The notes under the pieces are model-generated. The model saw only the letters and a program-made list of their open reading frames with translations. It had not been told where the DNA came from and did no database searches. Shown here piece by piece: positions 27,537 to 45,109 of a stretch of DNA of 64,000 bases; position 1 is the stretch's first letter; each line of letters starts with the position of its first letter. The translations under genes were made by a program, and so were the position numbers. The stretch is from Nioella nitratireducens (GTDB taxonomy: Bacteria; Pseudomonadota; Alphaproteobacteria; Rhodobacterales; Rhodobacteraceae), in assembly GCF_001879715.1 (NCBI RefSeq), contig NZ_MNBW01000007.1, positions 62,001 through 126,000 on the forward strand, in the 5' to 3' direction.

Positions 27537-27569
27537 CTGCGGCCTCATGGAAAATTCGCCTCTTGATAC

Positions 27570-28860: not shown

Positions 28861-29556
28861 CTAGACCCGCGCCTTTTCGAACGCTTCCCAAGCCTGCTGG
28901 AACGCCTCGAAATCAAAGCCCTCTTGTCGCGCCGGGCCCAGGACCAGCCTTTCGGTGTCCAGCAACGTCCGGATTGCCGCGGCAAGCGCGGGCAGCACGT
29001 CCCGGGGAACGACCAGCGCGCCATGGCGGTCGGCGTGGACCAGATCGCCGGGGGAAATGCGCAGGCCGAAAATTTCGACCGGGCAGTCGATGGCGCGGAC
29101 ATGGACGAAGCCGTGGCTTGGCCCGATCGAGCCCGCGATCACCGGGAAGCCCTTTGGCAGGTCGCCAAGGTCGCGCATGACACCGTTGGTCAGGGCGCCC
29201 GACAGGCCGAAGCCCTTGTGCACGGTGGTGTTGATCTCACCCCAGTACGCGCCGATTGCATGAGGAAAATCAACGTCTTCCACGACCGCGATGGCGGGAT
29301 CCGGAGACTCGGCCATGTAGCGGTAATAGGCCATGCGGCGCGCGCGCACGGCGTCGGCGGGATCGGTGGGCGGGGCAACGGCGGCGATCTGGGCGGTGCG
29401 GGCATAGCCGACGATGGCGCCCTCTTCCGGGGCCGATGCCAGCATCGTGCCACGCGTGAAGGCATCGAAGCCGCGTTTGCCTTGCACGACCTCGATGGCG
29501 TTGCAGACGGTGGGGGTATCGACCGTGCGGAGCAGGTCCAGAAGCGTGCTGTTCAT
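28861..29556 (-). CDS. RraA family protein, 4-hydroxy-4-methyl-2-oxoglutarate aldolase type
   Basis: A 231-residue RraA-fold protein. It keeps the residues that separate aldolases from the RNase E regulator: GVMRDLGD gives R128 and D129 with an acidic residue at D132 (R-D-x2-D). Such enzymes cleave 4-hydroxy-2-oxo acids to pyruvate plus a second product or decarboxylate oxaloacetate, using Mg. I chose ATG 29556, which overlaps the hydrolase stop as TGATG; a TTG precedes it. As the last gene of the minus-strand set, it is a good candidate for the final retro-aldol step of an uncharacterised pathway. Confidence 0.85.
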   Translation of the reverse strand: MNSTLLDLLRTVDTPTVCNAIEVVQGKRGFDAFTRGTMLASAPEEGAIVGYARTAQIAAVAPPTDPADAVRARRMAYYRYMAESPDPAIAVVEDVDFPHAIGAYWGEINTTVHKGFGLSGALTNGVMRDLGDLPKGFPVIAGSIGPSHGFVHVRAIDCPVEIFGLRISPGDLVHADRHGALVVPRDVLPALAAAIRTLLDTERLVLGPARQEGFDFEAFQQAWEAFEKARV

Positions 29557-30248
29557 CAATCCTCCAACCAGCGGGTCAAGGCCGCCGTGGTGCGTTCGGG
29601 GTGGTCCAGTGTGGGCAGGTGGCCCGCGGTCTCGATGATCTCAAGGCGGCTGTTTTTCAGCAATCCGTGCATCAGCTCATGGCGCTCGACCGGGCAGAGC
29701 CTGTCTTGCCGCCCGCACAGGACGAGGGCCGGTCCATCAAAGGCCCGCAGCGTTTCCTGTTGATCGGGGCGATCACGCAAAGCTATGGATTGATTGATAA
29801 AAACCTGCGGCCCAAGGTCCATGGCCATGGCCATGCACAGCGCCTCGATCTGGGGTCTGCGGGGGCTGTCAGTGCAATAATTGGGGATCATCGCCTCGGC
29901 CATGACCTCTTGCAGGCGGCCGGCGCGGACGGCCTCGATCTGGGGCGCGCGGCGGGCCTTGACCGCATCCAGTTCGGCGCGGGGATTGGTGTCGAGCAGC
30001 GCCAGACGTGCCACCCGGTCGGGGGCCTGGCGCAGGATTTCCATGGCCAGAATACCCCCCATGGAAAGGCCCGCCAAGGCAAAGCGGGGCGGCGCCACGG
30101 CAAGGATTCCCCTCGCCAATTGCCCCATGCTGGCAGCGTTTCCGAGGGGCATTGTGGTGACGGGGTGGCGGCCGGAGAGGGCGGCGATCTGGGGGGCGAA
30201 GAGGCGTGCGTCGCACATCATTCCGGGGAGGAAAACAATGGGTGTCAT
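29556..30248 (-). CDS. Alpha/beta fold hydrolase
   Basis: A 230-residue alpha/beta hydrolase. The oxyanion segment is VFLPGMMCDARLF near the N terminus, the nucleophile is S62 in GLSMGG, the acid is in LCGRQDRLCP, and the His is in ETAGHLPTLDHPE. It would hydrolyse an ester, lactone or similar bond. I chose ATG 30248; a longer frame from 30335 would begin inside the 11-bp repeat array and is unlikely. It is coupled to the RraA-family aldolase by a one-base overlap. Confidence 0.85.
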   Translation of the reverse strand: MTPIVFLPGMMCDARLFAPQIAALSGRHPVTTMPLGNAASMGQLARGILAVAPPRFALAGLSMGGILAMEILRQAPDRVARLALLDTNPRAELDAVKARRAPQIEAVRAGRLQEVMAEAMIPNYCTDSPRRPQIEALCMAMAMDLGPQVFINQSIALRDRPDQQETLRAFDGPALVLCGRQDRLCPVERHELMHGLLKNSRLEIIETAGHLPTLDHPERTTAALTRWLED

Positions 30249-30284
30249 GCTGCGTCCTCGGTCGAAAAGGAGGGGGTGCCCTGC

Positions 30285-30322
30285 GTACACCCCCTGTACA
30301 CCCCCCGTACACCCCGCGTGCA
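30285..30322. repeat. Second array of 11-bp GTACACCCC-type repeats
   Basis: Units start at 30285 (GTACACCCCCT), 30296 (GTACACCCCCC) and 30307 (GTACACCCCGC), with a degenerate GTGCA at 30318. Two of the units are identical to units in the 2557-2600 array, in the same orientation relative to the minus-strand genes. It lies between the cupin stop and the alpha/beta hydrolase start. Confidence 0.85.
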
Positions 30323-30393
30323 GACAAAACGGCATTTGCGCGGGCGCGGGAGCGGCGTCGGAGCGGCCCTTGACGACGGCCGCCCCGGTCGGG

Positions 30394-31362
30394 TCAGGCC
30401 CCGGACCAACTGGGGCCAGCGGGGTCTTGGGTGGCGGTAATGCGATAGAGCGCGGCTTCGCCGGTCATCGCGGGCACGACGCTGTGGGCGAGGTGCTCGG
30501 GCACCGACATGGTGTCGCCTGGGGCGAGCGTCGCGCTGCCTCCGTCCCAGTCCACCCGCCAGTGGCCCTTGACCGGCATCAGAACGGTCGGGCGATCCTG
30601 CGCGGCCTTGGCGGGCGTGGCCGAGGCGCGGGTGAGGAAATCGACCTCGAAGCCCGGCTTGTCCTGAAGCAGCCCGGTTTCGCCGATCACGGTGCAGGGG
30701 CTGCGGTCGGCAAGCGCCACCATGTCCCAATAGCGCGCAACGTGGTTGGGCAGCACCTCTGCCGTGGTGGGTTCGGGGCGCTTGGCGAGTTCCTCTTCCG
30801 TCATCAGGGGCATCGGCTGCACACCCTCGGGCAGGTGTTCGCCCTTCTTGGTGTCGTAGAGCTTGCCGGTTTCGGCCAGCACCAGCCCGTGATCGGCGGC
30901 GTCCTCGATCACCTGCGGGGCCCACATGACGCCGCCGCCAGCATCGTCGCCGCCGAGGATTGCCATGATCATCCCGTAATCGGTGCCGATATTTTCAAAC
31001 CCCCGGAACACGCCAGTGGGGATGTTGAAGATGTCGCCGGGTTCCAGCACGACCTCGCCCGCCGTGCCCCAGCGGCCCCAGAAGAAGCGCCAGCGCCCGG
31101 AGAGGACGAAGAACGCCTCTGCGGTTCGGTGATCGTGCAGCGAGTTGCGGCATTTGGGCGGCTGGCCCGCCGCCCCGATGTTGAAGCCGTGCGGGATGGT
31201 GATGTGGACGTGCTGGTCGGGGCTTTCCGACACGCCGCCGCCGATGATGGTAAAGTTTTCCTTCTGGTCGCTGCCCGGCGTGTGGGCGTCGATGAAGGCG
31301 GTCTTGCAGGGGTGCAGGTCGCCATAGCGAACGATGCGGGCGTCCATGTCTTGCGGGGTCAT
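30394..31362 (-). CDS. Cupin domain protein of unknown substrate
   Basis: A 322-residue protein with two cupin-like halves. The first half (about residues 60-140) has RNSLHDHRTAEAFFVLSGRWRFFWG followed by LEPGDIFNIPTGVFRGFENIG, the classic metal-binding and PGD/P cupin motifs. The second half (about 265-310) has KGHWRVDWDGGSATLAPGDTMSVPEHLAHSV. Bicupins include dioxygenases, isomerases and decarboxylases; no family match allows a reaction to be named. It follows, after a 369-bp gap, the first tandem-SnoaL gene and precedes the hydrolase and aldolase, so it probably acts in the same pathway. Confidence 0.82.
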   Translation of the reverse strand: MTPQDMDARIVRYGDLHPCKTAFIDAHTPGSDQKENFTIIGGGVSESPDQHVHITIPHGFNIGAAGQPPKCRNSLHDHRTAEAFFVLSGRWRFFWGRWGTAGEVVLEPGDIFNIPTGVFRGFENIGTDYGMIMAILGGDDAGGGVMWAPQVIEDAADHGLVLAETGKLYDTKKGEHLPEGVQPMPLMTEEELAKRPEPTTAEVLPNHVARYWDMVALADRSPCTVIGETGLLQDKPGFEVDFLTRASATPAKAAQDRPTVLMPVKGHWRVDWDGGSATLAPGDTMSVPEHLAHSVVPAMTGEAALYRITATQDPAGPSWSGA

Positions 31363-31731
31363 TTGATGTGTCCTTGGTGTGGAACTGCGGTTGGGGTGAT
31401 TGGGCCGGGATCAGCCCGCCCCCGGTGGCCGCAGGTTCAGGCGCCGCGCACGGCGGGACGCGAAGTAGCCATGAAGGCGTGTCAGCGCTTTGGAGGGGTG
31501 GAGGCCGTGGACCTCGCGGCGCGGGACAAAGGCCAACGGCCGCCGCGCATCGCCGGGCCGCCCCCCGGCACGGCGATTTGGCTGCCACCGGCGCACCGCC
31601 CCAATCACTCGCGGACGTGGCCACAATAAACCGCCTCGCTCCAGCGCCCGATCGCCGCACCGCGGCCCGCCGACGCACAGCTGGCTCACTGATGGGGCGG
31701 CGCAGCGCCGGGTATCGCGCAAAGTGGTCAC
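31363..31731. other. 369-bp gap inside the operon without a recognisable gene
   Basis: This very GC-rich stretch separates the cupin gene from the tandem-SnoaL gene, while most other genes in the set overlap or nearly overlap. Frames are open on both strands but give low-complexity Arg/Pro/Gly-rich peptides with no domain. I see no clear promoter, RNA gene or hairpin dominating it. It may be a dispersed intergenic repeat or a decayed gene. Confidence 0.5.
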
Positions 31732-32706
31732 TCAGACCTCGCCTGTTTGCAGCAGGATCTGTTTCCAGATCGCGGTTTCGTCGAAGATCGTGTATTCGCG
31801 GCGCAGGCCCCATGGCCCGAATTCCGCGTGGGTCATGCCCATGATATGCACGCGCTTGGCCGTCGGGGTGCCGAAGCTGCCCCAGCCATCGTGCAGCCCG
31901 TCGAGCGACCAGCGGATCGCGGCGCGGGGCGGCATCAGATTGTCCTCACGCCCGATCTGGTGGTGGATCGTGAAGGTGGCCGAGGGGAAAGAAGCCCGCA
32001 GACCGAGCCAGAAGTCATCCACGCCGCCATGGCTCTGCCTTGTCACGCCACCGGGATATTCGCCGATCACCGCGCGGTCGTATTCCGTGGGAATGACCGC
32101 GAAATCGGCATTCATCATCCGGGTCAGGATATCGGCGTAACGCTGGCCCCACTCATTGTCATTGCCCCGGCCCGCATAGGGCCCCTGCACATCATTCTCG
32201 GGCAGGTAGGGTTGGATGCACGTTTCCGGCCCGCCCTCGCGCGCGATCAGGTCGCGGGCATATTCCCTGGGGGTCCACCCCAGTTGCCGCACGATGGCGC
32301 CCTGATCGCGGACCAGCCATTCATCGGTGATCCGGTTGGCGCGGGCATAGCAGTCGGCGATGATGCGATAATGCAGGGTCTTGCCGGTGGCCTTGCCATA
32401 GACGCCGTCATGGGTGTGGGTCGCGGTGGAATGCAGGCGATGAGAGCTGAGATACCCGTCATCATTGCCCTCGCACCATATCACGTCCTCGCCATACAGC
32501 GTCCGGTCGGGAAACTCTGCCAGTGTCGCCATGGTGGCGGCGACCACGTTCTGGTTGCCGATAACGATAGAGCCGGGCGAGCGTACCGGCATGTCGGCGC
32601 CGTAGTAGTGGTCAAGCGTGGCGATGCCGCGATCTTCCCAGATCTCCTTGGTGATGCCGATGATGTAGTCGGGAAAATCTTTCCACTTGGGGTCGAAGCC
32701 CTTCAT
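31732..32706 (-). CDS. Tandem SnoaL/NTF2-like protein 1
   Basis: A 324-residue cytoplasmic protein made of two NTF2-like (SnoaL) cone folds, about residues 1-150 and 170-310. Recognisable elements are the helix WEDRGIATLDHYYGADMPVRSPG and, in the second half, SHGGVDDFWLGLRASFPSATFTIHHQIGREDN and MGMTHAEFGPWGLRREYTIFDETAIWKQI. The fold hosts polyketide cyclases, ketosteroid isomerases, dehydratases and epoxide hydrolases, so the reaction is unknown. I chose ATG 32706 because AAGGA lies eight bases upstream and it overlaps the LacI stop as ATGA; ATG 32715 is possible. It is the most divergent of three such proteins at this locus. Confidence 0.82.
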   Translation of the reverse strand: MKGFDPKWKDFPDYIIGITKEIWEDRGIATLDHYYGADMPVRSPGSIVIGNQNVVAATMATLAEFPDRTLYGEDVIWCEGNDDGYLSSHRLHSTATHTHDGVYGKATGKTLHYRIIADCYARANRITDEWLVRDQGAIVRQLGWTPREYARDLIAREGGPETCIQPYLPENDVQGPYAGRGNDNEWGQRYADILTRMMNADFAVIPTEYDRAVIGEYPGGVTRQSHGGVDDFWLGLRASFPSATFTIHHQIGREDNLMPPRAAIRWSLDGLHDGWGSFGTPTAKRVHIMGMTHAEFGPWGLRREYTIFDETAIWKQILLQTGEV

Positions 32707-33722
32707 TTTGTCCATCCTTCAGGAAGTCGTGCCGAGCCGCGCACCATCAACGGCCCGTCAATGGCCACGCGGCGCGGCGGGGCCGACGGGGTTTCGATCC
32801 GGGCCAACATGGTGCGCACGGTCTCATCGACCATGCGGTTGGCGGGCTGACGCACGGTGGTCAGGTTGTAGCTGGGCCATGCGGCGATGGTGACGTCGTC
32901 ATAGCCTACGACAGACACGTCACCGGGCACCGACAGCCCGAGGTCGAAGCGTAGAACGTCCATCACCGCAAACGCCATGTGATCGTTGGCGACGAACACG
33001 GCATCGGGCCGGTCGGGGCGGGTAAAGAGATCGCGCGCCGCCGCCTGCGCCTGATCGGCATGGAAATTCCCGACGGCGCGGGCGTGCAGCGACAATCCCG
33101 CCTCGGCCAGCCCGTCGAGGAAGCCCCGTTCGCGGTCGCGTTGGGTCGAGGCGCCCTCCCACCCCGCGATATGGGCGACCTTGCGGTGACCGCCCTGGGC
33201 GAGAAACCGCGCCAGCTTGCGCCCGCCCGCCACGTTGTCAGAGGCGACCCCGGCCAGCGTTTCGTCATCCTGCAAGCGGTTGAACAGCACCACGGGCACG
33301 CCCGCCGCCTCGCAGCGCAGGGTGATGTCCGACGACATGGCGACCGAGGCCATGATGATCCCGTCGACCTGGTAGTCGAGGATTTCGGACACCACGTCGT
33401 CGATATTGCCCGCCGTCTGCGAGGCCATGAAGATCAGGACGTGGTAGCCCTGTGCCTGCAACGCGGTCGAGAGCTTTTCCAGCACCTCGGGGTAGAAATG
33501 GTTTTCGAGATAGGCAACGACGAGGCCGATCATCCGCGAACGCCCGGTGATCATCGCGCGGGCCAGCACGTTGGGGCGATAACCCAGTTCCAGCGCAGCC
33601 TTCTTTACCTTGTCGGCGGTCTTGGCGGAGACCGAGGCACCGGGGGTGAACACACGCGATACCGCGCTTTGGGAGACGCCGGCCCGTTCGGCCACTTGCA
33701 GGGATGTCACTTTCTCCGCCAT
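32703..33722 (-). CDS. LacI family transcriptional regulator
   Basis: A 339-residue LacI/GalR repressor. The N-terminal HTH is TSLQVAERAGVSQSAVSRVF (about residues 6-25) followed by the hinge helix YRPNVLARAMITG, then a periplasmic-binding-protein-like sensor (MIGLVVAYLENHFYPEVLEKL, VFVANDHMAFAVMDVL). It is encoded inside the operon between the SDR and SnoaL genes with one- and four-base overlaps, so it probably autoregulates. The LacI-type dyads at 41735-41750 and 41790-41805 are its likely operators, with a sugar-like inducer. Confidence 0.9.
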   Translation of the reverse strand: MAEKVTSLQVAERAGVSQSAVSRVFTPGASVSAKTADKVKKAALELGYRPNVLARAMITGRSRMIGLVVAYLENHFYPEVLEKLSTALQAQGYHVLIFMASQTAGNIDDVVSEILDYQVDGIIMASVAMSSDITLRCEAAGVPVVLFNRLQDDETLAGVASDNVAGGRKLARFLAQGGHRKVAHIAGWEGASTQRDRERGFLDGLAEAGLSLHARAVGNFHADQAQAAARDLFTRPDRPDAVFVANDHMAFAVMDVLRFDLGLSVPGDVSVVGYDDVTIAAWPSYNLTTVRQPANRMVDETVRTMLARIETPSAPPRRVAIDGPLMVRGSARLPEGWTK

Positions 33723-35523: not shown

Positions 35524-35526
35524 GCT

Positions 35527-35549
35527 CTTCTTCTTGGTCCAAATACTCC
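35527..35549. repeat. CTTCTTCTTGGT..AAATACTCC element, copy 1
   Basis: A 23-bp element starting CTTCTTCTTGGT and ending AAATACTCC, followed by GGGGGG. It matches copies at 60957-60978 (inverted) and 61146-61168. Read on the minus strand it ends three bases before the ATG of the tandem-SnoaL gene, so its AAGAAGAAG could act in the translation start. Confidence 0.75.
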
Positions 35550-35626
35550 GGGGGGTCGTCGTTGGTGCGCCATTGGTTCAAGCCCAATGACGACGGGGCT
35601 GGCCCCCCGCTGCGATCCGTCTGCTG

Positions 35627-36955
35627 CTATTCCGCCGCCTCGCGATAGGGCGCGCCTTTGCCATAGGGCACGTTCAGCCCACCATAGCGGCGCACGCGGA
35701 TGTTGCATTGCTCGGCATGGCCCACGAAGCCCTCCAACATACACAGGCGCGAGCCGTATTCCCCCACCATGACGGCGGCCTCGTCGGTCATAACTTTCTG
35801 ATAGCTGTGGGTCTTGAGAAACTTGCCCACCCAAAGCCCGCCGGTATAACGCCCGGCCTTCCTGGTGGGCAACGTGTGGTTGGTGCCGATCACCTTGTCG
35901 CCATTGGCCACGTTGGTGCGCGGCCCGAGGAAGAGCGCGCCGTAGCAGGTCATGTTGTCGAGGAACCAGTCGTCGCGGTCGGTCATGACCTGCACATGTT
36001 CCGACGCGATGTCATCGGCCACGGTCAGCATTTCGTCATAGCTGTCGCAAAGGATAACCTCGCCGTAGTCTTCCCAACTTTTGCGGGCGGTGTCCGCGGT
36101 GGGCAGGATGGTCAGCAGGCGGTTGATCTCGGACAGGGTCTGGTCGGCCAGCTTGCGCGAATTGGTGACCAGCACGGCGGGAGAGTTGTAGCCGTGTTCG
36201 GCCTGACCCAGAAGGTCCGTCGCGCACAGCTCGCCATCCACGGTGTCGTCGGCGATGACCATGGTCTCGGTCGGGCCTGCGAAAAGGTCGATGCCGACGC
36301 GGCCGAAAAGCTGGCGCTTGGCTTCTGCCACGAAGGCGTTGCCGGGGCCGACCAGCATGTGAACGGGCTCGATGGATTCGGTGCCGATGGCCATGGCGCC
36401 CACGGCCTGAATGCCGCCGAGCACATAGATTTCATGCGCCCCGCCCAGATGCATGGCGGCGATCACGGCGGGGTTGGGTTTGCCCTGCCATGGCGGCGTG
36501 CAGGCCACGATGCGCGGCACGCCCGCGACGGATGCCGTGGCCACCGACATATGCGCCGAGGCGACCATGGGAAACTTGCCGCCGGGCACGTAGCAGCCCA
36601 CGGACTGCACGGGTATGTTCTTGTGCCCCAGGATGACGCCGGGCAGCGTTTCCACCTCGATATCGACCATCGAGGCGCGCTGCGCCTTGGCGAAGTTGAC
36701 CACCTGTTCCTGTGCGAACTTGATGTCGGCCAGCTCCCGGTCGGTCAATTCGTCGATCAGCGCGTCGATTTCGCCTTGCGACAGCCGGTAGCTGGCGGGT
36801 GAATACTTGTCGAATTTTTCGCTGAGCGCGCGCACGGCCGCGTCGCCGCGGGTTTCGATATCGGCCAGCGTCGCCTCGACCACGGCGCGGGTTCTGGCGT
36901 CATCCTCGGCCCGTTCGGCTGCGGGTTTGCCACGTTTGAGATAGTTTATCGTCAT
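35627..36955 (-). CDS. Histidinol-dehydrogenase-family enzyme in a catabolic operon
   Basis: A 442-residue protein with the full HisD fold. The expected Zn ligands are present at Q251 and H254 (GQAEHG), D353 (NGDKV) and H413 (VGHAEQ), and the catalytic pair at E319-H320 (ASEHVQV). HisD oxidises an amino alcohol to an acid in two NAD steps. Homologues in catabolic clusters act on other alcohols; sulfopropanediol 3-dehydrogenase (HpsN) of roseobacters is one example. Because there are no his genes here and the neighbours are a sugar ABC importer, SnoaL proteins and an SDR, a non-histidinol substrate is far more likely. The true substrate is unknown. Confidence 0.87.
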
Positions 36956-37070: not shown

Positions 37071-37084
37071 GCCGCCCGACCGCG

Positions 37085-38242
37085 TCATCCTTTCACCGCC
37101 CCCGCGGTCAGGCCGCTGACGATCTGGCGCTGGAAGATCATGACCAGCAGGAAGAGCGGCGCGGTGATCGACACGGCGGCGGCCACGGCCTCGACCTGAT
37201 CGGTCGTCGTCGTCTCGCGGTTGAAATAGCTGGCGATGGCGGGAACCATGGTCTGGTTGGACTGGTCCAGCAGCAGCGAGGTCACCAGAAAGTCGTTATA
37301 GGCCAAGAGGAAGCTGAACAGGCCCGTGGTGATGACGCCCGGCCACATCACCGGCATGATGACCCAGCGGAACGCCTGAAAATGGGTGCAGCCATCGACG
37401 CGGGCGGCCTCGTCCAGATCATTGGGGATGTTCTGGAAGAAGCTGCGCAGCATCCAGATGGTGAAGGGCTGGTTGATCGACACAAGCACCGCGATCACCG
37501 CCCATGGCTGGCCGTAGAGCGTCGGCGCGGCGTCGCCCAGATAGGGGCGCAGGATCTCGGCCGAGTTCACGAAGACCGGCAGGTAGCCCGCGACCAGCAC
37601 CGAATGGGGCAGTGCGCGAAAGACCAGCGCGAGAATCAGGATCCAGAATGCGAGGTTGGACCCCGACCGGGCCAGCGCAAACCCTGCCAGCGTGCCCACC
37701 GTCAGCGAGATGGTAACAACGCCGCCGGTCACGATCAGCGAGTTGATGAAGTTGTGGTAAAAGGCGTTCTCGATCCAGACGGATTGGTAATGGGCGGTCG
37801 TGAGGCCCAGAACCGGGTGGCCGAGCGGGCCAAGCAGCGGGTTCAGCACGCCCAACAGCGCGGGCAGGATCACGAAGAACACGACCACGAAGCTGAGCGC
37901 ATAGCCCACCGATGCGATGACCCAGCCAAAGATCATCTGGCCGCCGGGCGAATAGCTGGACACCATGCGGGGCAGCCAGCGCATCGCCAGCCGAACCGTG
38001 CAGACCAGAACCAGCAGGCCAAGCGCGATGTCGAGCAGCGACAGCCCGTTGCCCGCCGCCCGCGTGGCGGGACCGAAGATCACGTCGAGCGGGTTGGCCG
38101 CGAAGGCATCGACAGGGGACTTGAAGCTCATCACGCCGATCCAGAAGATCGGGAAAGCGGCAAGCAGGCACCAGAAGGCGAGGAAACCGGCAAAGGTCAG
38201 GCGCAGACCGAGGGGCTGGCGCAGGGCGCGGGGCGTCGACAT
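37085..38242 (-). CDS. Carbohydrate-type ABC transporter permease (MalG-like)
   Basis: A 385-residue permease, longer than most MalG proteins because of an extra N-terminal loop. The coupling motif is EAARVDGCTHFQAFRWVIMPVMWPGVITTGLFSFLLAYNDF (EAA loop). The start overlaps the partner permease stop as TGATG. Together with the MalF-like gene it forms the channel of the importer heading this operon. Confidence 0.9.
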   Translation of the reverse strand: MSTPRALRQPLGLRLTFAGFLAFWCLLAAFPIFWIGVMSFKSPVDAFAANPLDVIFGPATRAAGNGLSLLDIALGLLVLVCTVRLAMRWLPRMVSSYSPGGQMIFGWVIASVGYALSFVVVFFVILPALLGVLNPLLGPLGHPVLGLTTAHYQSVWIENAFYHNFINSLIVTGGVVTISLTVGTLAGFALARSGSNLAFWILILALVFRALPHSVLVAGYLPVFVNSAEILRPYLGDAAPTLYGQPWAVIAVLVSINQPFTIWMLRSFFQNIPNDLDEAARVDGCTHFQAFRWVIMPVMWPGVITTGLFSFLLAYNDFLVTSLLLDQSNQTMVPAIASYFNRETTTTDQVEAVAAAVSITAPLFLLVMIFQRQIVSGLTAGAVKG

Positions 38243-39267
38243 CAGTAGGAGCCTCCCTTGTGGTCACGCCATGTGCGGCGCAAGAGCGGAATGAGTAGAA
38301 CGACGATCCCCACCATGGTCAGCATGGCCGAGGCCGAGGCGCGTCCGAAGGCGCGGTTTCCGGCATCGTCGGGTTGCAGGAAATCATAGGTCAGCCATTG
38401 CAGCGAAATCACGTGCGCCTGGCTGGTGAAGCCGACGATTTCCTCGAACACGCGGTAGGTGTCCATCAGGTGAATGAGCGCGATGAAGATGATCAGCGGC
38501 ATCAGATGCGGGACGATCACGTAGCGCAGCCGGTCCCACCGGTTGGCGCCGTCGATGATGGCGCTTTCCAACGTGTCCTGATTCACGGTCTGCAGCCCGG
38601 CATAGAAGATGACGAAGGCAAAGGGCGCGACGTGCCAGACCCGGAAGAACAGCATCATCAACTCGATCGTCCAGGCCTGCGCGAACATGGCGATGTCGCG
38701 GTTCAGCCAATGTTCCAATGCCGTGGTCAGGATGCCGTCCCCGATGAAGAGCCAGCGGATCGAGAGAGCGCCGATCACCGGCGTGATGATGAACGGCAGC
38801 AGCGAGACGAAGATGACGGGACCGCGAATGGATTTGGCGGCGTTGTTGACGGCCAGCGCGATGGCCAGCCCCACCCCGATCACCAAGGGCAGGGTGACCA
38901 GCGTGAACATCAGCGTGAAACGCAGCGCCGACCAGAAGTTGATCTGCATCAGCGCGCCCCAGTCGAAGCTGGAAATCGCGGCCCATGCGGCCTCGGGGTT
39001 CAGGACCCGCTGATAGTTGAGCCATCCCACCCATTCGGTCGTGGTGACGATATGACCGTATTCATCCAGAGCCGGCCGCGTGACCATGGTCGTGGTGCAG
39101 GTCTGCGCCAGAAAGCCCGGCGTGCAGGTCTCTTCCTCGATCTGGTCCAGAACCGGTTGCGTCAACTGGAACGAGCCGACGAAGACCGACACCAGCGGGG
39201 CGGCGATAAACAGGAACATCAGGAAGACCGAAGGGCCGACAAAGGCCGCGAATGTCTTGAATTTCAT
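38242..39267 (-). CDS. Carbohydrate-type ABC transporter permease (MalF-like)
   Basis: A 341-residue inner-membrane permease. After the first helix (AAFVGPSVFLMFLFIAAPLVSVFVGSF) there is an unusually long periplasmic stretch of about 80 residues with four cysteines in two clusters (EEETCTPGFLAQTCTT contains two), and then the usual helices and the coupling loop ESAIIDGANRWDRLRYVIVPHLMPLIIFI. I chose ATG 39267, which gives a normal cytoplasmic N terminus. The substrate is probably a sugar, polyol or derivative. Confidence 0.88.
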   Translation of the reverse strand: MKFKTFAAFVGPSVFLMFLFIAAPLVSVFVGSFQLTQPVLDQIEEETCTPGFLAQTCTTTMVTRPALDEYGHIVTTTEWVGWLNYQRVLNPEAAWAAISSFDWGALMQINFWSALRFTLMFTLVTLPLVIGVGLAIALAVNNAAKSIRGPVIFVSLLPFIITPVIGALSIRWLFIGDGILTTALEHWLNRDIAMFAQAWTIELMMLFFRVWHVAPFAFVIFYAGLQTVNQDTLESAIIDGANRWDRLRYVIVPHLMPLIIFIALIHLMDTYRVFEEIVGFTSQAHVISLQWLTYDFLQPDDAGNRAFGRASASAMLTMVGIVVLLIPLLRRTWRDHKGGSY

Positions 39268-39296
39268 GGGCCTGACTCCGAATGGGGTGGGCAGGT

Positions 39297-39341
39297 GGCG
39301 GGGCGCGCGCGCGGTCAGGACCGCACTGGATGCGCCCCGCC
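39297..39341 (-). promoter_or_regulatory. Stem-loop after the sugar-binding-protein gene
   Basis: A perfect 10-bp stem (GGCGGGGCGC / GCGCCCCGCC) encloses a 25-base loop that holds an inner GCGGT/ACCGC stem. It lies in the 100-bp gap between the binding-protein gene and the MalF-like gene, matching the position of the stem-loop at 14370-14393 in the other importer operon. Confidence 0.65.
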
Positions 39342-39367
39342 CGTCCGTGAGGACATGCGGGCGTGGA

Positions 39368-40588
39368 TTACTCCAGCACGCCCGCTTCCTGTGCGGCGGT
39401 GGTGTAGGCGGCCTCGACTGCGGCCAGCGCCTCTTCGGCGGTGGCGCTGCCGGTGAAGAAGGCCGGCAGTTCATTGCCCAGCGCCGTGTGCATCAGGCCC
39501 ATTTGCGAGGTCGACGGATAGGCCGGCGGTGCGGGCTGGGCCGAGGCGGTGGCGATGGCGCCCTGCGCCAAGCGGCCGGGCTGATAGCCCTCGACCAGCC
39601 AGATGGCGGCATCGTTATTGGCTTCGACCATGTCGCTGTCGAGACCCTCCATAGCCACGCGGAAGGCGGCCGCGGCCTCGTCATCCGTGATGTTGGCGGC
39701 GATCACGATGCCATCCCACCACAGGGTGGTCGCCGGGGCCGCGCCCGCGACGGCCATCGGGGCGGCGGCGGCATCGACCAGACCGACGACCTGGCTTTCG
39801 CCTTCGTCATCCATGGCGCTGCCGCGGCTCGCCCACAGGTTGGCCATGGCAATGCGGCCTTGCTGGAATTGCTGCTGCACATAGGTGGAGTCGGACACCA
39901 GGTATTCCGGGTCCATGTAGTCGGTCATCGCCATCATCATGGTCAGCGCGTTGACGCCGGCCTCGGAATTGACATTGGGGGTGCCGTCATCGTTGAGGAA
40001 CGCCCCGCCATAGCCGAGGAACATGTTGATAAAGTCCTCTGCCAGGTTCCAGCCCGAGGCCATGGTCGCGCCGAGCGGATAATCGACGACGCCCGCGTCC
40101 TGAATAACCGCGGCGGCGTCAAGCACCTCGTCCCAAGTGGTGGGCACATCGAGCCCGAGGTCTGCGAAGATGTCCGAGCGATACATCAGGTGCTGCGTGT
40201 TCACCATCATGGCCACGGCCATGACCTGCCCGTTGATGCGGATCAGCTGGTTGGGGCTGAGGTTCTGGCCATACATTTCGACCAGGTCATCCAGCGGGCG
40301 GATGGTGCCCTGATTGAGCAGCGGAGTCACGGTGCCGTTGGATACGCCGCCGATCTGGTAGAGCGAGGGGTTCGCGGCAAAGGCCTGCGGCTGGACGGTG
40401 CGGAATTCCTGGTTAAGTTCCGGTTCGATATTGCCGCATTCCTGCCACGCGGCAGTGACGGCGTTCCATGCCTCGAACCCGGCGGTCAGCGACCGCAGCG
40501 GAACAGTGTTTTCAAAGGCACAATCGGCCATCGCCGTGCTGGCGACGGCAGACAAAGCGCCTGCGAGAAGAAGGGTCTTGAGTTTCAT
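39368..40588 (-). CDS. Extracellular sugar-type ABC substrate-binding protein
   Basis: A 406-residue periplasmic binding protein of the MalE/UgpB type. A signal peptide covers residues 1-21 (cleavage AMA-DC). Typical segments include PTTWDEVLDAAAVIQDAG near the hinge, FQQGRIAMANLWASRG and the C-terminal ALGNELPAFFTGSATAEEALAAVEAAY. ATG 40588 follows a GGGAGA ribosome site. It is the second gene of the operon and should determine substrate specificity of the importer; the ligand cannot be read from sequence. Confidence 0.88.
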   Translation of the reverse strand: MKLKTLLLAGALSAVASTAMADCAFENTVPLRSLTAGFEAWNAVTAAWQECGNIEPELNQEFRTVQPQAFAANPSLYQIGGVSNGTVTPLLNQGTIRPLDDLVEMYGQNLSPNQLIRINGQVMAVAMMVNTQHLMYRSDIFADLGLDVPTTWDEVLDAAAVIQDAGVVDYPLGATMASGWNLAEDFINMFLGYGGAFLNDDGTPNVNSEAGVNALTMMMAMTDYMDPEYLVSDSTYVQQQFQQGRIAMANLWASRGSAMDDEGESQVVGLVDAAAAPMAVAGAAPATTLWWDGIVIAANITDDEAAAAFRVAMEGLDSDMVEANNDAAIWLVEGYQPGRLAQGAIATASAQPAPPAYPSTSQMGLMHTALGNELPAFFTGSATAEEALAAVEAAYTTAAQEAGVLE

Positions 40589-40657
40589 CGAATGTCTCCC
40601 TGTCGATGAGCGGGTGCAGCTTCGAAGGCCTGCACCCATTTGAGGTTCGGAGCCTTG

Positions 40658-41713
40658 TCAGCCCTCGAGTCTTGCCCCCGTTTCGTGATGGAACAGGTGG
40701 CAGATTTCAGCGGGGATCGAGAACGAGATCCGGTCCCCGATTTCAGCGCGGAAGTCCTTGTGCGCCTTGACAGACACCAGCGCGCCGCCTGCCCGTGCGG
40801 TCAGCATGGTGGCGTCGCCCAACAGTTCGATCGTGTAGACCGGCGCGGTGATCTGGCCCTCGGTGGTGCCATCGGCAACGCGGGCATCCTCGGCACGGAA
40901 GCCCAGTTGCACAGGGCCGTCGGGGCCGGACAGCCCCTCGATGCGCACGTTCTTGCCGGTGAAGACACCGCCCTCAAGCGCGCCTTGCATCAGGTTCATC
41001 GCCGGGCTGCCGATGAAACCCGCGACGAATGTGTTCGCGGGGCGGTCATAGATTTCGGTCGGGGTGCCCACCTGCTGGACCACGCCGCGTTCCATCACCA
41101 CAACGCGGTCGGCCAGCGTCATCGCCTCGATCTGGTCGTGGGTGACGTAGACCGTGGTTACCTTGAGCTCGTGGCTGAGGTTCTTGATCTGCGCGCGGGT
41201 CGAGACCCGCAGCTTGGCGTCGAGGTTCGACAGCGGCTCGTCCATCAGGAATACGTTGGGTTCACGCACGATGGCGCGGGCAAGGGCCACGCGCTGACGT
41301 TGGCCGCCCGAAAGTTCCGCCGGTTTGCGGTGCAGGAATTCGGTCAGTTCCACCATCTCGGCTGCGCGCATCACCCGCGCGTCATGGGTGGCCGGATCGA
41401 CCTTGCGCACCTTGAGCGGGAAGCGGATATTCTCGTAGACGTTCATATTGGGGTAGAGGCCGTAACTCTGGAACACCATCGCCACGTCCCGGTCCTTGGG
41501 GTCGAGGTCGTTGACAACGCGGTCGCCGACGATGATTTCGCCCTCTGTCGGGTCTTCCAGACCCGCGATCATGCGCATGGTCGTGGTCTTGCCGCAGCCC
41601 GACGGACCGAGAAGAACGAGGAATTCCTCGTCGGCGATGGTCAGGTCGAATTTGTCGACGCCGACGAAACTGCCCCATCTCTTGGAGATGTTGCGAAGCT
41701 GGATCTGAGCCAT
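40658..41713 (-). CDS. Sugar ABC transporter ATP-binding protein (UgpC/MalK-like)
   Basis: A 351-residue ATPase with a C-terminal TOBE/regulatory domain. Walker A is GPSGCGKTTTMRM, the signature is LSGGQRQRVALARAI, Walker B is VFLMDEPLSNLDAKLR, and the tail includes VQLGFRAEDARVAD. I chose ATG 41713 because the N terminus MAQIQLRNISKRWG is standard. It is the first gene of the 12.9-kb minus-strand set and lies 22 bp from the LacI-type operator. Confidence 0.92.
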   Translation of the reverse strand: MAQIQLRNISKRWGSFVGVDKFDLTIADEEFLVLLGPSGCGKTTTMRMIAGLEDPTEGEIIVGDRVVNDLDPKDRDVAMVFQSYGLYPNMNVYENIRFPLKVRKVDPATHDARVMRAAEMVELTEFLHRKPAELSGGQRQRVALARAIVREPNVFLMDEPLSNLDAKLRVSTRAQIKNLSHELKVTTVYVTHDQIEAMTLADRVVVMERGVVQQVGTPTEIYDRPANTFVAGFIGSPAMNLMQGALEGGVFTGKNVRIEGLSGPDGPVQLGFRAEDARVADGTTEGQITAPVYTIELLGDATMLTARAGGALVSVKAHKDFRAEIGDRISFSIPAEICHLFHHETGARLEG

Positions 41714-41734
41714 GGGCCTCCCCGTGCGCATGTA

Positions 41735-41750
41735 TTGCATACGTTTGCAA
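41735..41750. promoter_or_regulatory. LacI-type operator 1
   Basis: TTGCATACGTTTGCAA is a 16-bp dyad with seven of eight pairs matching around a central CG, the hallmark of LacI/GalR sites; the flanking A and T extend the symmetry. It lies 22 bp before the ATPase start in the divergent region between the ABC/catabolic operon and the third SnoaL gene. Confidence 0.75.
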
Positions 41751-41789
41751 TAACGCTAGACAAGTCGGGGATGACTTGGCAAGAGTTTT

Positions 41790-41805
41790 TTGCAAACGTA
41801 TTCAA
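41790..41805. promoter_or_regulatory. LacI-type operator 2 (weaker)
   Basis: TTGCAAACGTATTCAA has six of eight matching pairs around a central CG. Its centre is 55 bp from that of operator 1 and 74 bp from the start of the divergent SnoaL gene. The two sites could permit looping or separate control of each promoter. Confidence 0.55.
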
Positions 41806-41871
41806 CGCGCCGCCCTTGCCCCGCCCGAAACCGAGAAAAACGAGGGCTTTGCCAGCGAAAAGGATGAGAGT

Positions 41872-42882
41872 ATGAGCGACTTTCAAACGGAGAAAGACTT
41901 GGTTCGACGCTATTACGCGGCCCTCGATTCCGCCAAGGGCCGCGAATCTGCTGCGGTGCTGCATGAATACTGCGATGCGGCATTACTCTGGCGCGGGGTG
42001 CATCCGTTTCACGAAATGACCGGCCCTGATGACGTGGCCGCCAAATTCTGGGCCCCGCTCAAGGACGCTCTGTCCTCGATCCAGCGACGGATGGACATCT
42101 TCTTTGCCGGGCGGAACGAAATGGATGGCGGCGCGTCGGTCTGGGTCGCGTCGATGGGGCATCTGATGGGGCTGTTCGACCGGCCATGGCTGGGGATCGC
42201 GCCCACCGGGAAACTGGCGATGCTGCGCTATGCCGCGTTCCACCGGGTCGAGGGCGGACGGATCACCGAGACCGCGCTTTTCATCGACATCCCGCACCTG
42301 ATGATGCAGGCCGGGCTGTCGCCCTTCCCGCCCCAAACCGCCGCGCATCTGGTGCAGCCGGGGCCGCTGACCCATGACGGGCTGCTGTTCGAGGCGCAGC
42401 CGGAGGACGAGGGCAGCCAGACGCTGGCTGCGATCAACGCCATGGTCACCGATCTTGGGCAATGGCAATCGGGCCTGCCGCTGGAAGAAGAACTGGCGCG
42501 GTCGTGGCATGACGACATGCTGTGGTGGGGACCGGCGGGGATTGGCGCGACCTATACCATCGCGCGTTATGCCAAGCAGCATTCGGCCCCGTTCCGCGCG
42601 GGCTTTGCCGATCGCAGCAAGACCAAGCACCTGTGCCGGATGGCAGAGGGGCATTTCGGCGGGTTCTTTGGCTGGCCCAATTTCACCGCGCGCGCCACCG
42701 GCGGCTTCATGGGGATGCCCGCCACCGGACAGGCGGGCGCATTCCGGGTGGTCGATATCTACCGCCGTGCGGGCGACAAGCTGGCCGAGAACTGGGTCTT
42801 CATCGACCTGCTGCATTTCTGGAACACGCAAGGGGTGGATGTGTTGGGCCGGATGGAGGCGATCGCGCCGCCCGCCCCCTGA
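41872..42882 (+). CDS. Tandem SnoaL/NTF2-like protein 3
   Basis: A 336-residue protein with two NTF2-like domains and strong similarity to the 34483-35523 protein (shared WLGIAPTGKLAMLRYAAFHRVEG, IDIPHLMMQAG, WWGPAGIG, ENWVFIDLLHFWNTQGVDVLGRM). The two are paralogues that have diverged, perhaps for successive steps or stereoisomers. I chose ATG 41872 because AAGGA lies close upstream; earlier frame would run through operator 2. It is the first gene of the right arm controlled by the LacI-type sites and is followed by the amino-sugar kinase and NagA genes. Confidence 0.83.
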   Translation: MSDFQTEKDLVRRYYAALDSAKGRESAAVLHEYCDAALLWRGVHPFHEMTGPDDVAAKFWAPLKDALSSIQRRMDIFFAGRNEMDGGASVWVASMGHLMGLFDRPWLGIAPTGKLAMLRYAAFHRVEGGRITETALFIDIPHLMMQAGLSPFPPQTAAHLVQPGPLTHDGLLFEAQPEDEGSQTLAAINAMVTDLGQWQSGLPLEEELARSWHDDMLWWGPAGIGATYTIARYAKQHSAPFRAGFADRSKTKHLCRMAEGHFGGFFGWPNFTARATGGFMGMPATGQAGAFRVVDIYRRAGDKLAENWVFIDLLHFWNTQGVDVLGRMEAIAPPAP

Positions 42883-42987
42883 CCGGACGGCGCGCGCCGG
42901 GGGTGGGGGTATAAATGAGGATCGGCCGCGACCTTGGCCAAGATTCCTTTTGGCAATCCACCGAAAGGCCCCTTAATGGGGGAACCG

Positions 42988-43869
42988 ATGATGACACCCC
43001 TGACTGACCCCCTGATCGGCATTGATGGCGGCGGCTCCGGCTGCCGCTTTGCGCTGGTGCGGGGCGGGCAGCGGGTCGAGGTTTCGGGCGGTCCGGCGAA
43101 TGTCTCGACCGATTTCGAAGGGGCGATGGCAACGCTGGACGGCGGGATTCATGCCTTGGCAGACCGCGCTGGCCGGTCCGTCGCTGACCTTGCCACGGCG
43201 CGGATTTATGTCGCGCTGGCGGGCGTGGTCAGCGCCGATCTGGCCACCGAAGTTGCCCGAAGGCTGCCGTTCCCCCATATCGTCGTGGCCGATGACCGCA
43301 TCGCCGCGACCACCGGGGCGCTTGGCGCGGCGGATGGCTGCGTGATCGGCATCGGCACCGGATCGTTCCTTGCCCGCAAGGTCGCGGGGCAGACGCGGTT
43401 GATCGGCGGATGGGGCTTGAACCTTGGGGACGACGCCTCGGGCGCGCATCTGGGGCGCGGCTTGTTGCAGCGGGCGGTGCTGGGCGTGGACGGGCTTGGC
43501 CCGACCTCGGAGCTGACGCTGGCGGTGCTGCAAGAGCTTGGCGGACCAGCGGGTGTCATTGGCTTCGCGGCCACGGCCACGCCCCGCGATTTTGCCAAGC
43601 TTGCGCCGCGCATTGTCGCGGCCGCGACCGCAGGCGACCGGGTTGCTCGGGGCCTGTTGTCGGATGGGGCGGCCTATATCGAGCGGGGCTTGCGGCGGCT
43701 TGGCTGGCAGCCGGGCGACGCCATTTGCCCGGTGGGTGGCCTTGCCGCATGTTACGGGGACGGTCTGCCCGACGAGATGGCGGACGCCCTGACCCCGCCC
43801 AAGGGCAGCGGCCTGGACGGGGCGCTGGCCCTTGCGGCCACCATCGCCCCCGGATGGCAACAGCCATGA
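42988..43869 (+). CDS. BadF/BadG-type ATPase, probable N-acetylglucosamine or glucosamine kinase
   Basis: A protein of about 293 residues of the ASKHA superfamily. The phosphate-1 loop is IGIDGGGSGCRFALVRGG, the ADP-binding segment is CVIGIGTGSFLARK, then GGWGLNLGDDASGAHLGRGLL and the second phosphate loop PVGGLAACYGDGLPDEM. This arrangement is that of NagK/GspK-type sugar kinases. The start is uncertain: ATG 42976, 42988 and 42991 are all in frame, and I prefer 42988 because GGGGGA precedes it. The following nagA gene supports amino-sugar phosphorylation. Confidence 0.83.
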   Translation: MMTPLTDPLIGIDGGGSGCRFALVRGGQRVEVSGGPANVSTDFEGAMATLDGGIHALADRAGRSVADLATARIYVALAGVVSADLATEVARRLPFPHIVVADDRIAATTGALGAADGCVIGIGTGSFLARKVAGQTRLIGGWGLNLGDDASGAHLGRGLLQRAVLGVDGLGPTSELTLAVLQELGGPAGVIGFAATATPRDFAKLAPRIVAAATAGDRVARGLLSDGAAYIERGLRRLGWQPGDAICPVGGLAACYGDGLPDEMADALTPPKGSGLDGALALAATIAPGWQQP

Positions 43870-43924
43870 CCCCCGCGATGTGCCCTGCCCGCCTGCGATC
43901 CGCCAGAAAGGAACCGAACGCCCC

Positions 43925-45109
43925 ATGACCAGCCCTCGCACCGCGTTTCAAGGCGCCGACATCTTTGACGGGCAGACCCGCCACAAGGACCACGCGCTGG
44001 TCATCGAAGCGGGCCGGGTGGCCGCTATGGTGGCGGTTGGTCAGCTTGATCCGGCCATACCGGTGCACCGCCTTTCGGGCGGGATGATCTGCCCCGGCTT
44101 CGTGGATGTGCAGGTGAATGGCGGTGGTGGCGTCATGCTGAATGACGCGCCCACGCTCCAGACCCTGACCCGCATCGCCGAGGCGCATGTCAGGCTGGGG
44201 GCGACCGCGATCCTGCCGACGCTGATCACCGACAGCCCGGCCAAGACCGCCGCCGCCATCGAGGCCGTGGCCCGCGCGATTGCTGCCGGGGTGCCGGGCG
44301 TGCGTGGCCTGCATCTGGAAGGCCCCCACATTGCCATGGCGCGCAAGGGGGCGCATGATCCCGCCTTCGTCCGCCCGATGACGCCAGAGGATGTGACAAC
44401 CCTGTGCGATGCCGCGCGACGTCTGCCGGTTCTGATGGTGACGCTGGCCCCCGAGGTGGTGGGGCCAGAGCAGATCGGCGCGCTGACGGCGGCGGGCGCA
44501 GTCGTCTCGCTCGGGCACAGCGACGCCAGTTTCGACAAGGCGCGCGCCGCCGTCGGGGCAGGCGCGCGCTGTGTCACGCATCTGTTCAACGCCATGAGCC
44601 AGCTTGGCAGTCGTTCGCCGGGCCTTGTCGGGGCGGCGCTGGCCGAGGGGGGCTTGTCTGCCGGGCTGATCGCCGATGGCCATCACGTCCACCCCGAGAC
44701 CCTGCGCCTGGCGCTGCGCGGCAAAGAGCCCCCCGGTCAGATCTTCCTTGTCAGCGATGCCATGGCGGTGGCCGGGACCGACGCCGAGCGCTTCGATCTT
44801 GGCGGACGCACGGTGCTGCGCCGCGACGGGCGCCTGACGCTCGAAGACGGCACGCTGGCGGGCGCGGACCTGAGCCTGCTGAGCGCCATTCGCAACCTGC
44901 TGCGCTGGCAGGCGGCAGGGGAAGAGACCGCGCTGGCCATGGCAACCGCGATCCCGGCCAAGGTCGCCGGGCTGAGCGACGGGAGCGGGACGTTGCGACC
45001 CGGCGCGCCAGCGGATTTCCTGCATGTCACCTTGGCGGGGGACGCGCCCGCCAAGGTCTGGCGTGGCGGCGTGCCGATCGGACCCTCCCGGCCTTTGCAA
45101 ACCACCTGA
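43925..45109 (+). CDS. nagA: N-acetylglucosamine-6-phosphate deacetylase NagA
   Basis: A 394-residue amidohydrolase of usual NagA length. Characteristic motifs are GFVDVQVNGGGGVMLND, HLEGPHI (metal Glu), SLGHSDASFDKARAA (metal His), THLFNAMSQL (metal His), DGHHVHP and LVSDAMAVAG (catalytic Asp). It removes acetate from GlcNAc-6-P in the cytoplasm. AAGGAA lies ten bases before ATG 43925. No glucosamine-6-P deaminase (nagB) or murQ is nearby, so the pathway is completed elsewhere. Confidence 0.92.
   Translation: MTSPRTAFQGADIFDGQTRHKDHALVIEAGRVAAMVAVGQLDPAIPVHRLSGGMICPGFVDVQVNGGGGVMLNDAPTLQTLTRIAEAHVRLGATAILPTLITDSPAKTAAAIEAVARAIAAGVPGVRGLHLEGPHIAMARKGAHDPAFVRPMTPEDVTTLCDAARRLPVLMVTLAPEVVGPEQIGALTAAGAVVSLGHSDASFDKARAAVGAGARCVTHLFNAMSQLGSRSPGLVGAALAEGGLSAGLIADGHHVHPETLRLALRGKEPPGQIFLVSDAMAVAGTDAERFDLGGRTVLRRDGRLTLEDGTLAGADLSLLSAIRNLLRWQAAGEETALAMATAIPAKVAGLSDGSGTLRPGAPADFLHVTLAGDAPAKVWRGGVPIGPSRPLQTT

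Follow-up and report, generated by a model that had tools for sequence, protein, structure and literature searches.

We analysed a window of 64,000 nucleotides of Nioella nitratireducens (contig NZ_MNBW01000007.1 of assembly GCF_001879715.1, positions 62,001-126,000) and found an island of about a dozen genes, widespread in mostly marine bacteria, for which comparative data support the reading of a LacI-linked, co-conserved catabolic system. The island combines three proteins with tandem SnoaL domains (SnoaL1, SnoaL2 and SnoaL3), a carbohydrate uptake transporter family 1 (CUT1)-type ATP-binding cassette (ABC) importer, a HisD-like dehydrogenase, a short-chain dehydrogenase/reductase (SDR), a bicupin, an alpha/beta hydrolase, an RraA-like protein and a LacI-family regulator. 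On balance, we favour import and breakdown of a polar, carbohydrate-sized compound, through the steps set out below, as its function. A sequence-only reading of the window had proposed one such system; its gene positions stand, and the proposal is borne out by 80 related loci and by co-occurrence within the bacterial family. Twelve genes, from RraA to the ABC ATPase, lie on the minus strand and SnoaL3 diverges from them (Table 1). All are open frames with ATG starts, and five junctions (RraA/hydrolase, SnoaL1/LacI, LacI/SDR, SDR/SnoaL2 and permease 2/permease 1) overlap by 1-4 bases, as that reading had seen.

A scan of genome contigs with an alignment of SnoaL1 confirmed at least 577 relatives, of which the best 80 loci, 59 of full length, were retained; genes were counted with the best reference, fixed bit-score cut-offs and 10-kb flanks, and SnoaL1 is present in all 80 by construction because the loci were fetched through it. 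In these best 80, the co-occurrence check proposed beforehand recovered the HisD-like gene in 72 and SnoaL2 in 75. Absence of linkage between the SnoaL genes and the transporter had been named in advance as evidence against a single system; the linkage is kept, with permeases in 70/80, the binding protein in 65/80 and the ATPase in 60/80. These per-gene counts are rough: the flanks often stop short of SnoaL3 and the ATPase, the small, divergent hydrolase is undercounted, and a surplus SnoaL may be scored as SnoaL2 or SnoaL3. Most often the genes run SnoaL3 (divergent), ATPase, binding protein, permease 1, permease 2, SnoaL4, HisD-like, SnoaL2, SDR, LacI, SnoaL1, bicupin, MetE-like, hydrolase and RraA; annotated plasmids of Octadecabacter, Ruegeria (three), Paracoccus and Marinovum carry the island with small changes.

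The comparison also redraws the limits of the gene set. The core proposed from the window stands; the set was incomplete, as the consensus island also has a MetE-like gene (67 of the best 80 of at least 577 loci) and a single-domain SnoaL, here SnoaL4 (66 of the 80). NagA and an amino-sugar kinase had been counted as members: both genes are present in the window, yet they recur in none of the 80 loci and beside SnoaL3 in none of the five congeners (one of which was read over 2.4 kb), and we leave them out. The same holds across the 80 SnoaL1 loci for the window's glycoside hydrolase family 13 (GH13) and glycosyltransferase genes, none of which recurs.

Co-occurrence extends to whole genomes. 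SnoaL1 is present (E <= 1e-60) in 169 of 394 genomes of the window's family, sampled at about one per genus, which limits kinship and does not remove shared descent. An orthologue of the HisD-like protein (at least 64% identity, followed by a gap down to about 50%) was found in 99 of the 198 family genomes searched. In these 198, 81 have both genes, 18 the HisD-like gene only, 5 SnoaL1 only and 94 neither (odds ratio 84.6, Fisher p 9e-31; tallied by hand from both listings, with the 198 taken to be a subset of the 394). When loci were instead selected purely on HisD similarity, a SnoaL gene lay within about 1.5 kb in 28 of the best 30, one of which is the window.

The intergenic region between SnoaL3 and the ATPase was said to hold a LacI-type operator, and it holds a pair. 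Paired palindromic operators at the promoter, as expected of LacI-controlled operons, occur in the window and in all five congeners, where they are spaced 54-55 bp apart. We tried 35 such intergenics, the window included; 5 were empty and 30 readable. With a site defined as a 10-mer with at most one mismatch to a motif taken from the window, at least one site is present in 20 of the 30, the window being one of the 20, and 8 have two sites 44-56 bp apart; after mononucleotide shuffling of the set, sites turned up in a mean of 0.5 regions (maximum 3) and never as a pair. Because the pair is kept across relatives, SnoaL3 is placed in the same regulon as the operon, and we infer that the island's LacI protein binds these predicted sites. 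The ATPase probably starts at 41713, since the upstream ATG (41738-41740) falls inside operator 1.

The HisD-like dehydrogenase is, by motif and tree, a class of its own beside HisD and HpsN, here termed class A. Among solved structures, those of HpsN are closest to it (best E 2e-114, against 2e-72 for true HisD). According to the accessible text of PMC11382572, a histidine that reads the sulfonate marks HpsN, in the motif GRY[AS]H, against GSAPL in HisD. At this site the window protein has GKFPM, with Met in place of HpsN His126. A motif pattern read 69 of 79 sequences, 66 with GKFPM, 2 with GKYPM and 1 with GGYPM; of the ten that it did not read, four show PAGKFPM. All six HpsN-tier controls, including the window genome's own, have GRYSH or GRYAH, and identity of the HisD-like protein with HpsN was rejected on this ground. 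The window protein also differs from GSAPL, a weak criterion, given that even the HisD of this genome has GLASY at that site; stronger grounds for setting the HisD-like protein apart from HisD come from the tree and the similarity tiers. In the tree (FastTree, midpoint-rooted, support values not considered), the class A clade, with relatives reading GKYPL, GKFPL and GGYPM, is separate from the six HpsN-tier proteins and from seven proteins, termed class B, with the motif GR[FY]P[LI]. The window genome carries all three kinds: HisD (C67:34769), an HpsN-tier protein with GRYSH (contig C45) and class A. The zinc and catalytic set of HpsN (Gln248, His251, Glu318, His319, Asp352, Lys353 and His411) is retained as QHEHDKH in 16 of 16 sequences compared, drawn from class A, class B and two Deinococcus copies. 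Class A should therefore perform HisD chemistry, converting CH2OH to COOH beside a zinc-bound OH or NH; its substrate would be neither histidinol nor 2,3-dihydroxypropane-1-sulfonate (DHPS). The histidinol-dehydrogenase superfamily would thus gain at least one class, and probably two, beside HisD and HpsN, with a short, testable signature.

The SnoaL proteins each contain two SnoaL/NTF2 domains above the Pfam cut-offs, as predicted, and AlphaFold models of SnoaL1 and SnoaL2 (predicted local distance difference test 90.6 and 92.3) are two-domain NTF2 folds. Superfamily membership is supported by Pfam profiles for all three proteins and by Foldseek matches for the two models. Across the 4.01-Mb genome, PF07366 gives six matches at E <= 1e-3, all within SnoaL1-SnoaL3. 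The paralogy claimed for SnoaL2 and SnoaL3 is confirmed (38% identity over 294 columns, E 4e-55), as is the greater divergence of SnoaL1, whose BLASTP comparison with SnoaL2 is not significant (E 0.26); profile comparison of these two gives a weak match of 63 columns (probability 30%, E 6e-4). Fold searches with the two models yielded just the very common NTF2 fold. Single domains align with polyketide cyclases (the enzyme named SnoaL2, AclR and IdmH) and ketosteroid isomerase; scytalone dehydratase is absent among the fold matches listed, which excludes nothing. No polyketide synthase is named in the annotated island regions examined, for which gene tables are incomplete; an acyl carrier protein S-malonyltransferase lies just beyond the island of Ruegeria THAF33.

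The remaining proteins retain the residues of their families. The Arg-Asp pair is the active-site pair of RraA-family aldolases acting on 4-hydroxy-4-methyl-2-oxoglutarate (HMG) and 4-carboxy-4-hydroxy-2-oxoadipate (CHA); the window protein has it as R128-D129, kept in at least 95% of 61 loci plus the reference. The second of its three PDB matches is the CHA aldolase 3noj (E 3e-6), and we infer that it may cleave 4-hydroxy-2-oxo acids. S62, D182 and H210 are conserved in the alpha/beta hydrolase, whose nearest NCBIfam models (PcaDC/PcaD and BioH) all score below cut-off, and N126, S155, Y168 and K172 in the SDR, nearest to KduD and glucose 1-dehydrogenase, again below cut-off. The first barrel of the bicupin retains H76, H78 and E82, with R120 replacing the usual third His, a substitution that weakens a role as ring-cleaving dioxygenase; no PDB entry matches this protein by sequence at E <= 0.01. 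The importer has the hallmarks of the CUT1 type (an SBP_bac_1 protein, two BPD permeases and a MalK/UgpC-type ATPase with a TOBE domain); the OB_MalK profile scores below cut-off, and PDB relatives of the binding protein include SmoF and maltose-type proteins.

We propose the following pathway for a substrate best read as a polar molecule bearing a C(OH)-CH2OH unit. The importer would take up a polar, carbohydrate-sized compound, on whose ring or sugar-like skeleton the SnoaL/NTF2 proteins would act early, dehydrating or isomerising it or opening the ring. Since the consensus genes include no enolase- or IlvD-type dehydratase, dehydration is a candidate role for the SnoaLs or the bicupin. Class A would convert a terminal CH2OH beside a zinc-bound C-OH to the carboxylate in one four-electron step, the SDR would oxidise a secondary alcohol, and the bicupin and alpha/beta hydrolase would contribute isomerisation and hydrolysis. 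RraA would then split a 4-hydroxy-2-oxo acid, giving pyruvate or oxaloacetate plus another oxo compound. A methyl group of the substrate would, in most relatives, pass to the one-carbon pool through the MetE-like protein, whose gene the window species lacks; the setting of MetE-like relatives in the sphingomonad clusters described below speaks for such methyl handling. The working order of steps suggested by the sequence-only reading is compatible with these data. In full form the pathway has about 15 genes, and naming its substrate would expose a carbon flow now hidden in annotation as hisD and ester cyclase. With SnoaL1 as its marker in 169/394 family genomes, the island should meet a common natural compound.

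Table 1. Features of the island and its immediate surroundings in the window; counts are of the best 80 SnoaL1 loci.
Feature	Position	Strand	Evidence	Loci (of 80)
RraA-like aldolase candidate, 231 aa	28861..29556	-	PF03737, E 2e-16	57
Alpha/beta hydrolase, 230 aa	29556..30248	-	PF00561/PF12697	43 (at >=100 bits)
Bicupin	30394..31362	-	PF07883	74
Tandem SnoaL protein 1 (SnoaL1), 324 aa	31732..32706	-	PF07366/PF12680	80 (by construction)
LacI-family regulator, 339 aa	32703..33722	-	PF00356, Peripla_BP	76
SDR oxidoreductase, 254 aa	33722..34486	-		75
Tandem SnoaL protein 2 (SnoaL2), 346 aa	34483..35523	-	Pfam, model and fold matches	75
HisD-like dehydrogenase, class A (GKFPM)	35627..36955	-	zinc and catalytic residues kept	72
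ABC permease 2	37085..38242	-	PF00528	70
ABC permease 1	38242..39267	-	PF00528	70
Periplasmic sugar-type binding protein	39368..40588	-	SBP_bac_1	65
UgpC/MalK-type ABC ATPase	40658..41713	-	ABC_tran and TOBE_2 over cut-off; start moved (probable)	60
Operator 1 (predicted), TTGCATACGTTTGCAA	41735..41750	.	16-bp near-palindrome; kept in congeners	
Operator 2 (predicted), TTGCAAACGTATTCAA	41790..41805	.	16-bp near-palindrome, 55 bp from operator 1; kept in congeners	
Tandem SnoaL protein 3 (SnoaL3), 336 aa	41872..42882	+	Pfam; divergent from operon	30
NagK-like kinase	42988-43869		beside SnoaL3; below cut-off	0
NagA	43925-45109		beside SnoaL3; above TIGR00221 cut-off	0

Beyond the RraA end of the island lie a tRNA-Gly gene (28619-28692) and then znuB-, znuC- and zur-like genes (25493-27548), the three scoring below NCBIfam cut-offs. 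On the other side, a sucrose-phosphorylase-like GH13 gene (45257-47002; 193 bits, below cut-off) is convergent with a glucosyl-3-phosphoglycerate-synthase-like (GpgS-like) gene (46988-48235; GpgS_Meth 338 bits, below cut-off), and the pair is perhaps a glucosylglycerate cycle.

Relatives of the island vary in ways that bear on its parts. Beside islands like that of the window (type I), type II islands occur in Roseibium, Alloyangia, Martelella, Sinorhizobium medicae, Novosphingobium, Pantoea and two family genomes (L166 and L174); they have one SnoaL of about 390 residues (two in Pantoea) and an amidase, and seven of the eight have class B HisD. In an alphaproteobacterium of another family (L211), a type II-like island includes a MetE-like gene as well. 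Deinococcus carries three tandem SnoaLs together with two HisD-like genes and a carbon-nitrogen hydrolase. L186-L189 have an annotated RraA, in place of which L185 and L191-L194 have an HpcH/HpaI-type aldolase, an exchange that supports aldol cleavage as a step. Class A HisD and the SDR, with no SnoaL in the stretch shown, occur in Sulfitobacter pontiacus, with a tripartite ATP-independent periplasmic (TRAP) importer of the TAXI type, and in Agrobacterium, with few partners; on pRL8 of Rhizobium johnstonii, class A is found with transhydrogenase genes. The S. pontiacus stretch (L185, 8078-15122) is a minimal unit of LacI, TAXI-TRAP importer, HpcH-type aldolase/citrate-lyase-family protein, class A HisD and SDR. 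Conversely, Vibrio pelagius and Phaeobacter piscinae have SnoaLs and an ABC importer without the oxidising core in the stretches shown. These two, together with the class A-positive genomes that lack SnoaL1, leave unsupported the earlier idea that the SnoaLs alone define the system. Ensifer adhaerens (L194, 14531-16386) combines SnoaL1 and the ABC importer with a 3-oxo-tetronate kinase and an aldolase, with no HisD or SDR in the stretch shown.

Some flanking genes recur. In 14 of 94 loci, all in a Sulfitobacter/Roseobacter/Tateyamaria group, an opposite-strand enolase-superfamily (MR_MLE) gene stands at the island's far end (for example L048, 17309-18556); in the flanks of this group a zinc alcohol dehydrogenase, a major facilitator superfamily gene and a Lyase_1 gene also recur. 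An open reading frame (ORF) for an S-adenosylmethionine (SAM)-dependent methyltransferase, perhaps of more than one family, is near or inside the island in L132 (15354-15956) and in 12 loci of the flank count (L124, 13005-13799, and 11 others); in Ruegeria THAF33 one sits between the bicupin and MetE-like genes. A PPOX-type flavoprotein ORF recurs in the flanks of 15 loci. SBP56, which we take to be of methanethiol-oxidase type, and a small membrane protein stand beside SnoaL3 in Phaeobacter piscinae (L042, 13564-15792), and adjoin both the island and a dmd operon in Marinovum algicola (L130, 18731-20996); with SBP56 in just 2/94 loci, the link to dimethylsulfoniopropionate from the Marinovum plasmid is a weak lead. 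Many other recurrent flank ORFs look like noncoding frames or group synteny.

Several observations weigh against the catabolic island as we propose it. The 80 loci are the top matches to one query and are partly near kin (L050 and L051 resemble one contig). Among family genomes, 18 of 99 with class A lack SnoaL1 (E <= 1e-60) and 5 of 86 with SnoaL1 lack class A. The HisD-SDR pair is also found with TRAP or few partners and is therefore a reusable module. The window genome (99.96% complete) has no match to the MetE-like protein, and its only matches to SnoaL4 are the tandem proteins themselves; for MetE-like, loss in the window species would be the simplest reading, because all five congeners have the gene (82-88% identity over the matched parts). 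Ten of the 30 readable intergenics have no operator site. The Deinococcus HisD-like copies (GRYPM and GRYPI) belong to neither of the main groups, class A or class B: one is a deep branch beside class A and the other stands alone. The bicupin lacks the canonical third His, RraA proteins are not all aldolases, and L174 and L179 match both aldolase kinds, so the exchange is not strict. Where the enolase-superfamily gene is present, it may supply a classical sugar-acid dehydratase and the SnoaLs need not be dehydratases, and type II hosts are marine and terrestrial alike. Finally, what is observed is the gene content, its synteny in different bacteria, the paired operators and the retained catalytic residues; the order of steps is our interpretation.

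Among other substrates, a less probable, though serious, alternative is non-phosphorylative breakdown of a glycoside, polyol or sugar acid, with dehydration by the SnoaLs or the flanking enolase-superfamily enzyme. It would account for the CUT1 importer, the LacI regulator, an SDR near KduD and glucose or rhamnose dehydrogenases, the HpaI/GarL/RhmA-type aldolase in the RraA role in Pantoea, the 3-oxo-tetronate kinase and aldolase of the Ensifer variant and the MR_MLE gene; three to four SnoaLs and a MetE-like gene would be superfluous for any such route known to us, and the enolase-type gene, encoded on the opposite strand, is confined to one group of kin. Breakdown of amino sugars with the NagA- and NagK-like genes can be set aside with near certainty, for although both adjoin SnoaL3, neither is there in any of the 80 loci or the five congeners, where a conserved linkage would place them. 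Hardly more credible is a pathway for DHPS or another sulfonate through HpsN: HpsN is the closest solved relative of the HisD-like protein, whose GRY[AS]H His126 motif is nevertheless replaced, and the window genome has a separate HpsN-tier protein that reads GRYSH. We also regard as improbable the catabolism of an N- or S-methylated osmolyte conjugate, such as a betaine-lipid head group or a sulfonium compound. It draws on a GlxA/GbdR-like regulator ORF in five loci (L038, L040, L041, L047 and L103; the L038 copy is nearest GbdR, at 310 bits against a cut-off of 480), on soxBDAG and purU in Vibrio, on a DAO plus a GCV_T protein in L047, on a DmdA-like folate-binding protein in the L111 operon (12967-14130, between SnoaL1 and MetE-like) and on the dmd operon beside the Marinovum island. 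However, each neighbour occurs in one to five loci, mostly outside the island operon, and the L111 protein is below its curated cut-off (368 against 410 bits).

Mycosporine sunscreens offer a chemically more specific alternative, to which we give similarly little weight. The 4-deoxygadusol core carries a 2-methoxy group and a tertiary C5(OH)(CH2OH), the CHA aldolase substrate has a tertiary carbinol carboxylate, and mycosporine-glutaminol has an amide and an amino alcohol. Type I islands would then serve mycosporine-like amino acids, and type II islands mycosporine-glutaminol-like side chains, an assignment as doubtful as the rest. The SnoaLs might split off the amino acid and either dehydrate the cyclohexenone ring or open it, and class A might oxidise the tertiary hydroxymethyl to a C5 carboxylate; it is no likelier that the methyl group would enter the one-carbon pool via MetE-like and that RraA or HpcH would cleave a CHA-like (citrate-like) tertiary hydroxy acid. 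If true, the island would be the missing bacterial pathway for these sunscreens. The RraA family does include CHA aldolase, as in the 3noj match, MetE-like relatives sit in the methoxy-aromatic clusters described below, the amidase and usual second HisD-like protein (class B) of type II would suit mycosporine-glutaminol, and the alignments of SnoaL1 include ketosteroid isomerase and polyketide cyclases, which act on cyclic enones, albeit in a very common fold. Bacteria convert shinorine and porphyra-334 to mycosporine-glycine and 4-deoxygadusol, according to a report cited in the accessible part of a review (PMC3083659). Yet the case is purely circumstantial, built on the chemistry of the compounds, and we found no mycosporine catabolic gene, or link of the island genes to mycosporines, in the accessible portions of open-licence papers. 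Type II is not confined to land; given its occurrence in Roseibium, Alloyangia and Martelella, the two types cannot be divided cleanly into algal and fungal mycosporines. Sugars are the usual cargo of CUT1 importers, and Sulfitobacter has class A with a TRAP transporter. A general sugar, polyol or sugar-acid substrate is thus likelier than a mycosporine, and breakdown of a polar, carbohydrate-sized compound by the proposed steps is the reading that we retain.

The protein families of the island are each known, and an island that links LacI, an importer and enzymes is known as a kind. For this gene set, the roles of its enzymes and its substrate, we found no description in the accessible portions of open-licence papers, in which nothing contradicts the earlier statement that no described pathway has the set. 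Partial likenesses exist. Three sphingomonad plasmids (from Sphingobium, Croceicoccus and Novosphingobium; loci L195, L207 and L208), whose clusters are related and not independent, encode relatives of the MetE-like protein (53-54%) beside a single NTF2 protein, an IclR regulator, an aminomethyltransferase-family protein, presumably of LigM/DesA type, metF and purU. These methoxy-aromatic, lignin-type O-demethylation clusters resemble the island in pairing a MetE-like protein with a single NTF2 protein and, in Croceicoccus, in having LigK of the RraA family. Unlike the island, two of the three have aromatic ring-cleavage genes and all three a demethylase-type protein; LigM-like, metF, purU, folD, LigK and LigB have no match above 150 bits in the 80 type I loci.

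For SnoaL2, the best-ranked fold matches are the tandem NTF2 epoxide hydrolases Lsd19 and MonBI/MonBII, which share tandem or paired NTF2-type domains with it over alignments of more than 320 columns; the whole-query template modelling score is just 0.28-0.33 at 13-16% identity, and their context is antibiotic biosynthesis, unlike that of the island protein. The SnoaL-like polyketide cyclases and ketosteroid isomerase have the domain fold in common with the island SnoaLs, but are single-domain chains from biosynthetic or steroid contexts. HisD shares its fold and zinc site with class A, yet is far more distant from it than HpsN is. The HpsN pathway, like the island, has a partner SDR (HpsO/HpsP), and its importer is of the TRAP type; the island differs in the GKFPM Met in place of His126, in the separate clade of its dehydrogenase, in an ABC rather than a TRAP importer, and in having SnoaLs, a bicupin and RraA. 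HpsN ((R)-DHPS 3-dehydrogenase; 8v35 and 8wwe) and class A have in common the HisD fold, the zinc ligands and the catalytic Glu, His, Asp and Lys, and a four-electron oxidation of CH2OH beside C-OH is expected for both.

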